From Pseudomonadota bacterium (GTDB lineage: Bacteria; Pseudomonadota; Alphaproteobacteria; Rickettsiales; RGZB01), in NCBI GenBank assembly GCA_010031735.1, contig RGZB01000008.1, positions 1 through 60,810 on the forward strand: a stretch of DNA of 60,810 nt, read 5' to 3'. The notes beneath the pieces are model-generated. The model ran no database searches. It saw nothing but the letters and a program-made list of their open reading frames with translations, and had not been told where the DNA came from. Position numbers and translations under genes: made by a program. Shown here piece after piece: positions 53,619-56,641 of the stretch (positions are counted from its first letter, which is position 1; the number at the start of each line of letters is the position of its first letter).

Positions 53619-53645
53619 TTGCAATATACCCCCCATGGGTATAAT
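53619..53645 (+). promoter_or_regulatory. Promoter of the metal cassette
   Basis: TTGCAA (53619-53624) and a perfect TATAAT (53640-53645) with a short 15-base spacer; TATTGC at 53617 would give 17 bases. The -10 overlaps the right half of the CsoR-type operator, ideal for repression. Confidence 0.55.
53625..53643 (+). promoter_or_regulatory. CsoR-type operator
   Basis: TATACCC-CCCAT-GGGTATA: seven-base inverted arms around a C-rich centre. The TACCC/GGGTA arms match the operators known for CsoR-family repressors. It overlaps the -10 of the cassette whose last gene encodes a CsoR-like protein, implying autoregulation. Confidence 0.65.
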
Positions 53646-53667
53646 ATAACCTTCATAGGTTGCTTTT

Positions 53668-54315
53668 ATGAAACGTTTACTCACCGGCTTAAGTTTTGCC
53701 GCCACGCTTACCTGCACACTCCCCCCGCAGGCGCTGGCGGTGAAGCCGATCAATTTCGCCGGTGGGTACGTCATCATGAATGAATATTCCTACAACGGCA
53801 AAATGCTGCATATGTATTATTCGCCGTCCGCCACCTTCTCGTTCGGTTTAGATACCGAGTGGATGGAAAAGGATGATAACGAATATACCTCTTATATCGC
53901 CCGCACGAATTATCTACTGAAACGCTGGAACATGCCCGAAGCACAGGCCAATGTGTATTTCAACATCGGGTTAGGTGTCGCGGAAGATGATAATAATACG
54001 AAATTCGCGGCCAAAAGCGGCATCATGGCCGATTATGAAACCCGCCGCTTCCTGGTGTCCTACGAAAATAAAGCATACCACGCCACCGACATCGACAATC
54101 ATTTTGAGCAAAGCGTACGTGCGGGTTTTGCGCCTTATGTCGGTGAATACGGCGATCTGCATACCTGGTTTATGATCCAGGCAGACCACCACCCCACCAA
54201 CGATGACCAGTTCGTCATCACGCCGCTCGTGCGCATGTATTACGGCACGGCGCTTTGGGAAGCCGGCTATAGCAGCAATAACAATCTATTTGTGAGTCTT
54301 AACTGCCAATTCTAG
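53668..54315 (+). CDS. Small outer-membrane beta-barrel of the metal cassette
   Basis: A 215-residue protein with a signal peptide cleaved after ALA (residue 24). It has alternating hydrophobic strands rich in Tyr, Phe, Asn and Gly, and a C-terminal aromatic residue (LFVSLNCQF), all typical of outer-membrane barrels, probably of eight to ten strands. It carries several His/Asp clusters (QADHHPTNDD, YHATDIDNHFE) that might contact metal. It is the first gene of the cassette, directly behind the CsoR-type operator. I do not recognise a named family; metal passage across the outer membrane is inferred from neighbours only. Confidence 0.8.
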   Translation: MKRLLTGLSFAATLTCTLPPQALAVKPINFAGGYVIMNEYSYNGKMLHMYYSPSATFSFGLDTEWMEKDDNEYTSYIARTNYLLKRWNMPEAQANVYFNIGLGVAEDDNNTKFAAKSGIMADYETRRFLVSYENKAYHATDIDNHFEQSVRAGFAPYVGEYGDLHTWFMIQADHHPTNDDQFVITPLVRMYYGTALWEAGYSSNNNLFVSLNCQF

Positions 54316-54324
54316 GAGGATGTT

Positions 54325-54612
54325 ATGAAACGCCTATTATTTACGACTGCATTGATTGCGACTTTATTCACCACTCCTGCATTTGCAGCGCATAAGGCGG
54401 ATGTAACGGTAAACGGTATGGTCTGTGACTTTTGCGTACAAGGCCTGAAGAAAACCTTCGGCAAGCGTGAGGAGGTAAGTGGTATCGATGTCAGCCTAGC
54501 AGAAAAGCGCCTAACGCTCGATTTCAAGCCTGGCAAGGATATGGATGATACGACCATCACCAAGCTCGTGACGGACAACGGACTTAATGTCGGCGGCATC
54601 AAACGCGAGTAA
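54325..54612 (+). CDS. Periplasmic heavy-metal-binding protein (MerP/CopZ-like)
   Basis: A 95-residue HMA-fold protein with a signal peptide (about 1-22) and the metal site GMVCDFC, Cys34 and Cys37. It continues as a ferredoxin-like beta-alpha-beta fold (VSGIDVSLAEKRLTLDF). Exported HMA proteins next to MerT-like permeases pick up Hg(II) or Cu(I) in the periplasm. It begins nine bases after the barrel gene and ends three bases before the MerT-like gene. Confidence 0.9.
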   Translation: MKRLLFTTALIATLFTTPAFAAHKADVTVNGMVCDFCVQGLKKTFGKREEVSGIDVSLAEKRLTLDFKPGKDMDDTTITKLVTDNGLNVGGIKRE

Positions 54613-54615
54613 TAT

Positions 54616-54993
54616 ATGAACCTCAAGAGCAACCAGATCATCACGACCTTAAGCCTGTTCACGTCGTTCAGCACCCTGTTCTGCTGCGCGCTGCCGGCAT
54701 TGTTCGTAGCACTCGGCATGGGTGCGGTGGTGGCCGGTGTGGTGTCGAACGTACCGCAACTAATCTGGCTTTCTGAACATAAGATCGGCTTATTCTCGGT
54801 CGCGGCCTTGTTGCTTATTGCCGCCGGGTTTATGACCTGGAAGAACCGCTACGCCCCCTGCCCGACCGACCCGGTGCAAGCGAAAGCCTGCACGCGTTTA
54901 CGTAAAATCAACGCGTGGATTTACGGCATCTCCGTAACCTTGTATATGATCGGCTTCTTCTTCGCGTTCATTGCAGCCAAACTGGTGAGTTAG
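54616..54993 (+). CDS. MerT-like inner-membrane metal transporter
   Basis: A 125-residue membrane protein with three to four helices. A Cys pair, Cys23-Cys24, lies in the first helix (TLFCCALPALF), and a second pair, Cys82 and Cys92, lies in the loop before the last helix. This is the two-pair layout of MerT mercuric permeases. With the MerP-like partner directly upstream it forms a MerTP-like import or relay module; the metal is not fixed by sequence, and the CsoR-like regulator points to copper. It ends two bases before the regulator gene. Confidence 0.85.
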   Translation: MNLKSNQIITTLSLFTSFSTLFCCALPALFVALGMGAVVAGVVSNVPQLIWLSEHKIGLFSVAALLLIAAGFMTWKNRYAPCPTDPVQAKACTRLRKINAWIYGISVTLYMIGFFFAFIAAKLVS

Positions 54994-54995
54994 AT

Positions 54996-55304
54996 ATGAA
55001 AGATTGTTGCGGCCACGGCCCAGAGACCCATCACGAACATCCCGACCATTCGGGAGAGATTTCACGCGTGAACCGCATCAGCGGGCAGCTCGCAGGCGTG
55101 AAAAAAATGATCGAAGAGCACCGCTATTGCCCCGAGATACTGATACAGCTGCGCGCCATCCGCTCCGCCGTGAAGGCGCTGGAAGCGAATATCTTAGAAA
55201 CGCATCTCGGCCATTGTGTGAACGATGCGATGAACAGCCAAGATGCCAAAGAAGTGAAAAAGAAGATCAAAGAACTGCAAGAAATCTTCAAGCGCTTCGA
55301 CTGA
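54996..55304 (+). CDS. CsoR-family metal-sensing repressor
   Basis: A 102-residue all-helical DUF156 repressor. The ligand set is Cys45, His70 and Cys74, with the same spacing as the Cu(I) ligands of Mycobacterium CsoR (36, 61, 65), in the contexts HRYCPEIL and THLGHCV. This differs from the C-H-H set of RcnR. The N-terminal 18 residues are an extra Cys/His cluster (DCCGHGPETHHEHPDH) that may bind metal as in InrS or RcnR. The gene closes the cassette and probably represses it through the operator at 53625-53643. Confidence 0.93.
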   Translation: MKDCCGHGPETHHEHPDHSGEISRVNRISGQLAGVKKMIEEHRYCPEILIQLRAIRSAVKALEANILETHLGHCVNDAMNSQDAKEVKKKIKELQEIFKRFD

Positions 55305-55349: not shown

Positions 55350-55365
55350 TGTTCCACGTGAAACA
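55350..55365. other. parS centromere site
   Basis: TGTTCCACGTGAAACA differs at one base from the symmetric chromosomal parS TGTTTCACGTGAAACA, and is the strand complement of TGTTTCACGTGGAACA, a form used in alphaproteobacteria. ParB nucleates here. The site is intergenic. It suggests that the segment is within tens of kilobases of the replication origin, which fits the his-hslV neighbourhood. Confidence 0.88.
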
Positions 55366-55495: not shown

Positions 55496-56641
55496 ATGGC
55501 CATACAACCCGCACGCTTCATTGTGATGCATGAGAATACCGCCCGTGAGCAATCGGAGGGGTATCCGGCGAAACTTGTTGCTGCGTCAGAGGAATTGCTG
55601 GCTCTATATCCCCGCACGATGAAAGATTTCATGGCAGCGCTCGCAGTGGTCGTGCGCAATCACTTAGGAACCACAAAAAATGAATACGACCGCTTCGGCC
55701 AAGTGATTACAGCGGATTCACTCGTGGATACGCCCCTTATGGGTAGAACCTATTTCGAAGCGTTCGAAGCGGCGTATAATGCACGCCACCAAGAACCGCT
55801 TGTACAAAAAACGTTCTTCGATGGCAGTATCGTACATACATGGAATCCCGTGTACAGAGTGCCGAAAACAGGTGTCGAACTACCGCTCACGATCATCACA
55901 AACAGTCCCACCCAATTGCATGAATTCGATAGGCTCTGCCCGCAGGGGCTTGGGCTGCAAGGCCCTGCTATGCTGGACGACGTACAGAAACCACTGAAAG
56001 GCGTGCCGCGCATATTGCATCCGAATTATGTGCACAGTCCGGGCTTCTTCGATGCAACAGAGGATGCGTATCTCTGCTTGCTGGGTTCCGGCTCGCGCAA
56101 TGACCGTGAAGCCGCACATGATTTATTGATGCCACTGATCGGCCATTCGATCGGCCTTATCGCACGCGGCGGTACGAGCGCAACACTGATCGCACGCGAG
56201 ACATTGCCGGTGCTGGGGCATCTCGATGAACCCGCGATGATGAAGAAGGGCACGGATTACTGGGCGCATGTCATCGTACGCACGGTGGAAGAAGCGGTGG
56301 CGGATCACAAAAACTGGTATGACCGGACGCTCGATCCTCGAGAAGTGATGGATTGGCATCTATCGCATGCAGAGAAAAACGCCGTCCGCAAAAGGCGTGA
56401 GCATGAGATGGATTATATCCAGTTGACCGGACCTTATATGGAGGATCAAGAAGCCGACGCACTCCGCGCTCAGTGGAAAGTACGCGCTGACACCACAGCC
56501 GATCCAGAGGAGCTGGACCATCTCACCCGTATGAGAGTCATCCTCGGTTTACATAAGCCGGAGAAACGTGGTGGATTCGATATGGAGGCGCTCGCCGCAC
56601 TCTTGAAACAGATGCGTGCACCGGGGCAAGACAAGCAATAA
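55496..56641 (+). CDS. Hypothetical protein, 381 aa, unrecognised
   Basis: I recognise no family. There is no signal peptide or membrane helix. The N-terminal half mixes helices and strands (FIVMHENTAREQ, EELLALYPRTMKDFMAAL, FFDGSIVHTWNPVYRVP), a layout compatible with a sensor-type alpha/beta domain. The C-terminal third is charged and helical (HLSHAEKNAVRKRREHEMDY). It is a single gene between parS and convergent hisF. The ATG at 55496 has no strong Shine-Dalgarno; an ATG ten codons later (MHENT) is an alternative. Confidence 0.78.
   Translation: MAIQPARFIVMHENTAREQSEGYPAKLVAASEELLALYPRTMKDFMAALAVVVRNHLGTTKNEYDRFGQVITADSLVDTPLMGRTYFEAFEAAYNARHQEPLVQKTFFDGSIVHTWNPVYRVPKTGVELPLTIITNSPTQLHEFDRLCPQGLGLQGPAMLDDVQKPLKGVPRILHPNYVHSPGFFDATEDAYLCLLGSGSRNDREAAHDLLMPLIGHSIGLIARGGTSATLIARETLPVLGHLDEPAMMKKGTDYWAHVIVRTVEEAVADHKNWYDRTLDPREVMDWHLSHAEKNAVRKRREHEMDYIQLTGPYMEDQEADALRAQWKVRADTTADPEELDHLTRMRVILGLHKPEKRGGFDMEALAALLKQMRAPGQDKQ

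Follow-up and report, generated by a model that had tools for sequence, protein, structure and literature searches.

What could a pair of proteins resembling the mercury transporters MerT and MerP do when it is encoded together with an outer-membrane β-barrel and controlled by a CsoR-family repressor? This question is raised by a four-gene cassette in the window, the whole stretch of 60,810 nucleotides that we analyzed. MerT and MerP of the mercury system import Hg(II), and CsoR is a repressor that is released from DNA by excess Cu(I). A reading of the window made from the sequence alone had proposed a CsoR-controlled cassette for a thiophilic metal, most likely copper, that lacks mercury reductase, and our analysis supports that part of its proposal.

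Results

Gene organization of the cassette

The cassette extends over positions 53668-55304 of the plus strand and comprises four open reading frames (ORFs) separated by 9, 3 and 2 bases. They encode a β-barrel protein, an exported HMA protein with a CxxC motif, a MerT-like protein and CsoR (Table 1). The ORFs, domain searches and AlphaFold2 (AF2) models confirmed the arrangement given by the sequence-only reading, namely four genes 2-9 bases apart encoding these four protein types. As it had also stated, merA, merR and P-type ATPase genes are absent from the cassette, hisE lies upstream and parS lies downstream. Its description of the cassette as inserted was not supported, as the GC content was 51% in the cassette and 53% in the window. 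The parS site is a perfect TGTTCCACGTGAAACA at 55350-55365, approximately 45 bases past the csoR stop codon, and the cassette adjoins this chromosome-partitioning site. Directly after parS, positions 55496-56641 encode a 381-residue protein for which no Pfam or NCBIfam match over the cut-off was found.

Table 1. Coordinates and properties of the cassette genes and their putative control elements.
Feature	Position	Strand	Description
Weak -35-like TTGCAA	53619-53624	+	15-base spacer; direct sequence reading
CsoR type-2 operator ATATACCCCCCATGGGTATAA	53624-53644	+	core TAC-X9-GTA; 2 mismatches to the published consensus
-10 hexamer TATAAT	53640-53645	+	perfect; overlaps the right half of the operator; direct sequence reading
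Outer-membrane β-barrel protein	53668-54315	+	215 residues; 12 strands; exported; C-terminal Phe
Exported HMA (MerP/CopZ-like) protein	54325-54612	+	95 residues; GMVCDFC motif
MerT-like inner-membrane protein	54616-54993	+	125 residues; CC (23,24) and C82/C92
CsoR-family repressor	54996-55304	+	102 residues; C45-H70-C74; His-rich N-terminus

Structure of the barrel protein

The structure prediction suggested by the sequence-only reading yielded a 12-stranded barrel. The AF2 model, built with 14 relatives, contained antiparallel strands with a mean pLDDT of 88.5, and its fold matches were 12-stranded barrels with Z-scores of 15-17, including unrelated autotransporter domains and KdgM/NanC-type porins. 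Together with a signal peptide (read by eye), the even number of strands and the terminal Phe are those of an outer-membrane barrel. At the sequence level, no match was found in Pfam, NCBIfam or the PDB sequences; a match to an unrelated known family, which the earlier reading had named as evidence against itself, was thus not obtained.

The invariant residues of the barrel (R86, N88, D122, E124, R126, R189 and E198) were charged, polar or structural. In the model, D122, E124 and R126 would point one way by strand alternation, probably into the barrel lumen. The alignment of relatives contained no invariant Cys, His or Met, and so gives no sign of a copper site in the barrel itself. The barrel was also considered as a relative of CopB/PcoB, and this was rejected at an hhalign probability of 1% over 30 columns. 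PcoB (7pge) was present among the fold matches with a Z-score of 12.5, no better than unrelated 12-stranded barrels.

The exported HMA protein and the MerT-like protein

The HMA protein scored 27.3 bits against PF00403 (gathering score 24.8), carries a signal peptide and a CDFC motif, and its CxxC was invariant in 24 relatives. Against the MerP model TIGR02052 it reached 25.6 bits, compared with an equivalog cut-off of 92.55. The NCBIfam CopP/CopZ models outscored MerP, all of them remaining below their cut-offs, and among PDB entries the HMA profile was closest to copper ATPase and CopZ domains, which were nearer than MerP.

Both Cys pairs that had been noted in the MerT-like protein were found in the MerT layout, with the CC pair in the first helix and the second pair in the loop that leads into the last helix; all four Cys were invariant in 25 relatives. 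Alignment with true MerT by hhalign gave a probability of 88% and an E-value of 3e-6, with CC aligned to CC. The AF2 model, which is of moderate confidence (pLDDT of 74.5), placed helices at residues 3-45, 56-78 and 86-124 in a MerT-like order. No PF02411 (MerT) match was found for the protein of the window, and weak matches were present in 4 of its 25 relatives (best E-value, 3e-4). Judged from these alignments, the protein is a remote MerT relative, of a family that falls below all curated cut-offs.

A sister arrangement was observed at three loci (L079 5482-8339, L081 969-2596 and L087 7019-8673), where MerT-like and MerP-like genes stand beside a gene for a larger exported protein that starts ..FNTALP(I/L)S.. 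and, in L079, matches PF13557. This may be a second barrel family paired with the same MerT/MerP-like relay.

CsoR and its operator

CsoR scored 90.6 bits against PF02583 (gathering score 22.8) and is the sole PF02583 protein in the window's genome. Aligned to the solved CsoR and InrS proteins, its C45, H70 and C74 coincide with their ligands and form the Cys-His-Cys triad. The published operator consensus ATATACCCCTNAGGGGTATAT (PMC3902906) matched the window once, with two mismatches, at 53624-53644, whereas 0.02 matches were expected in the window. This site has the type-2 form, TAC-X9-GTA with G tracts, and stands at CsoR's own operon; type 2 is the form of CsoR, and type 1 is that of RcnR (PMC3902906). 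A genome-wide count of the perfect core with five-base half sites, TACCC-N5-GGGTA, gave just two sites in 2.38 Mb. The CsoR-type operator of the sequence-only reading was therefore confirmed as a near-consensus site overlapping TATAAT. The consensus promoter scan, which demands a spacing of 16-18, did not report the promoter at 53619-53645.

Recurrence of the barrel-MerP-MerT triad

Relatives were searched with the barrel and the MerT-like protein, and 63 non-redundant loci were retained after duplicate removal. A MerP-like gene was present at all 63 loci with a barrel gene beside a MerT-like gene, and the absence of recurrence named by the earlier reading as grounds for abandoning its proposal was not observed in this synteny check. 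The loci were spread over Alphaproteobacteria, Gammaproteobacteria and Bdellovibrionota. By rank, relatives were found in 24 of 196 good genomes of the same order, 22 of 315 of the class and 6 of 338 of the phylum.

Plasmid records contained only distant MerT/MerP variants, and the barrel family was not detected in them. On two Vibrio plasmids (L029 4276-6146 and L031 4212-6347), a MerR-type regulator and a GDCCVxC (seleno)protein are encoded along with MerT-like and HMA frames that overlap; in L029 these genes adjoin copper-resistance genes. The parts of the triad each belong to a known superfamily or fold, and the barrel family has no name in the tested libraries. No description of the triad was found among open-licence PMC papers on MerT-like proteins with copper or on CsoR with MerT/MerP.

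Alternative controllers

Across the 63 loci, the controller was CsoR at 13, a MerR-family activator at 11 and a CutF-like upstream ORF at 23, and none was found at 16; no locus had two kinds together. The CsoR operator pattern was present upstream at 10 of the 13 CsoR loci and at none of the 50 others (Fisher p 2e-9, an overstatement of independence, as for all controller and operator p-values here, since the loci are mutually related). The same pattern matched twice in 829 kb of control DNA.

Ten small upstream ORFs were scanned against Pfam for DUF2946 and gave no match; therefore, the published CutF rules were used to classify the Cys-rich upstream ORFs. As given in PMC9973294, these rules are a length under 150 residues, a signal peptide, PP within the last 15 residues and location on the same strand. 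In our scan, the signal peptide was taken from a crude hydrophobic-stretch rule, the gap was limited to 300 bases or fewer, and the hits had several Cys. The rules were satisfied at 23 of the 63 cassettes and by none of 631 control genes. CutF is a co-translational copper sensor, and CutF-like upstream ORFs with Cys motifs are mostly linked to copper, according to PMC9973294 and PMC8456105.

On a tree of the barrel and MerT-like proteins, at least seven controller switches were required even when loci without a controller were ignored, and one sister pair differed in its controller (CsoR in L092 and CutF-like in L095). Across these loci, the transport module was kept intact while the sensor was exchanged. 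The controllers themselves also varied. At the position that is Ser in the copper sensor CueR, the aligned MerR-family controller has a Cys, shared with CadR and with a solved MerR of the Hg type and repeated in most relatives of this controller; from the alignment, this residue would fit divalent metals. In 2 of the 13 cassette CsoR proteins (L014 5382-5702 and L092 6168-6590), Tyr replaces the ligand His, while the two Cys are retained and a CC is present at the N-terminus. These two proteins possibly answer a different signal.

Copper genes near the cassettes and in their genomes

Genes for multicopper oxidase, CopB, P1B ATPase or cupredoxin flanked 12 of the 63 cassettes and none of the 59 control regions (p 3e-4; with the first 20 control regions p was 0.06, and the set was then enlarged to 59 with no region dropped except one single-base one). 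At nine of these 12 cassettes, at least two copper genes stood together.

The copper search of the window's own genome took in copper ATPase, multicopper oxidase and COX1. It revealed the haem-copper oxidase subunit I (COX1), no multicopper oxidase and no copper P-type ATPase over the family cut-off. The best ATPase match was a P1B-like ATPase at G000:C175:16476-18092 (L183 6267-8126), which has no HMA domain and carries a TPC motif, TPCPL, in place of CPC; the other was KdpB. About half of the cassette genomes have CopA and about half have no copper ATPase over the cut-off, an absence that is provisional as some of the genomes are incomplete. Since about half also have CopA, the cassette is not simply a CopA substitute.

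Discussion

Proposed mechanism and direction of flow

Sequence comparison supports regulation by CsoR, the operator and the conservation of the module; the metal carried, the contacts among the three proteins and the direction of flow we infer. The metal is probably copper, a well-supported assignment because CsoR with its type-2 operator, the CutF-like upstream ORFs and the copper-gene neighbours agree. The best explanation of the cassette, which we hold somewhat above an even chance, is an envelope-spanning copper relay that is inducible by copper stress. Rising cytosolic Cu(I) would cause CsoR, through C45, H70 and C74, to leave the operator overlapping the -10 box, and this release would allow transcription of the operon. 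Thiol exchange between the MerT-like protein and the exported HMA protein would then carry Cu(I) over the inner membrane and on through the periplasm, from where the 12-stranded barrel would offer it a way past the outer membrane. The net flow of Cu(I) would most likely be outward, for detoxification, in place of CopA/Cus, which seem to be absent from the genome.

We favoured export because CsoR de-represses under copper excess. By analogy, outward flow would contradict the nearest precedent, import by MerT/MerP, and it is not evident what would power export by so small a thiol relay. This precedent of Hg(II) import lends some weight to copper acquisition, in which the barrel would admit copper, the MerP-like protein would capture it and the MerT-like protein would pass it into the cytosol or on to the assembly of the respiratory oxidase, and the genome does carry a haem-copper oxidase subunit I. 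In addition, PMC9426467 describes CruR, a CutF/CruR-type upstream ORF, as controlling the TonB-dependent transporter gene bfrG. However, with CsoR freed by excess Cu(I), an importer would be induced just when copper is poisoning the cell, and the neighbouring multicopper oxidase, CopB and P1B genes are copper-resistance genes that act in detoxification. We consider acquisition unlikely, with roughly one chance in five; the earlier reading had favoured it, and induction by excess Cu(I) together with relatives inside copper-resistance islands left that part of its proposal unsupported.

It is less probable still that the cassette serves another thiophilic metal (Hg, Zn/Cd or Ni) and that the copper genes are merely neighbours. 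The divalent-metal Cys of the aligned MerR-family controller, an N-terminal His of CsoR that lies close to where the nickel sensor InrS has its fourth ligand, and the mercury precedent of MerT/MerP are consistent with this. In contrast, MerA over the cut-off was found in none of 45 cassette genomes (the window's own and 44 others), so that no merR/merA operon was seen; with the MerP and MerT family cut-offs also unreached, membership in a mercury operon was rejected. The operator is of the CsoR type 2 and not the RcnR type 1 (PMC3902906), the copper-gene neighbours point the same way, and so do the CutF-like upstream ORFs, which with Cys motifs are mostly copper-linked (PMC9973294). Finally, it is highly improbable that nothing is transported and that reducing power passes through the inner membrane by way of the MerT-like Cys pairs, so that the exported HMA protein keeps its CxxC reduced and buffers periplasmic Cu(I). 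Four invariant Cys over a helix and a loop, with an invariant CxxC in the exported partner, would also suit thiol-disulfide exchange, but searches revealed no resemblance to thioredoxin-like proteins or to DsbD/CcdA, and the distant relative that was identified, MerT, transports metal.

Returning to the copper relay, we suggest tentatively, and at somewhat less than even chances, that the triad represents an undescribed, ATP-independent route of copper export across the envelope that takes the place of CopA/Cus in proteobacteria with small genomes and was repeatedly rewired to CsoR, MerR-type and CutF-like sensors. If so, a thiol relay of the mercury MerT/MerP type would be widely used for copper, with a dedicated barrel that the family libraries do not name, and it would provide a copper defence for bacteria in which neither CopA nor multicopper oxidase is found. 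The loci would also be a naturally occurring set of variants, with the same module placed under a cytosolic repressor in some, under an activator in others and, in others again, under a nascent-chain periplasmic copper sensor.

Comparison with known systems

CopB/PcoB resembles the barrel in being an outer-membrane barrel of approximately 200 residues found in copper loci, but the two have no profile similarity, and CopB, where it flanks a cassette, is a separate gene. The systems of the cutFOG/CruR type share a small exported Cys-rich ORF with a C-terminal PP just upstream, as seen in 23 related cassettes under the published rules. In contrast, the window has no upstream ORF of the CutF type and CsoR senses instead, and the available portions of the CutF literature name no downstream barrel-MerP-MerT set. 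In mer operons of the Tn501 type, too, a gene for a small membrane protein of several helices, bearing a first-helix CC and a Cys pair in a loop, adjoins one for an exported CxxC HMA protein; the cassette differs in that MerP precedes MerT, an outer-membrane barrel comes first, control is by CsoR, and merA and merR are lacking. The CsoR-copZ-copA operons are similar in their C-H-C CsoR, their type-2 TAC-X9-GTA operator and a CopZ-like HMA gene within the operon, whereas the cassette has no copA, its HMA protein is exported, and this protein is accompanied by a barrel and a MerT-like protein.
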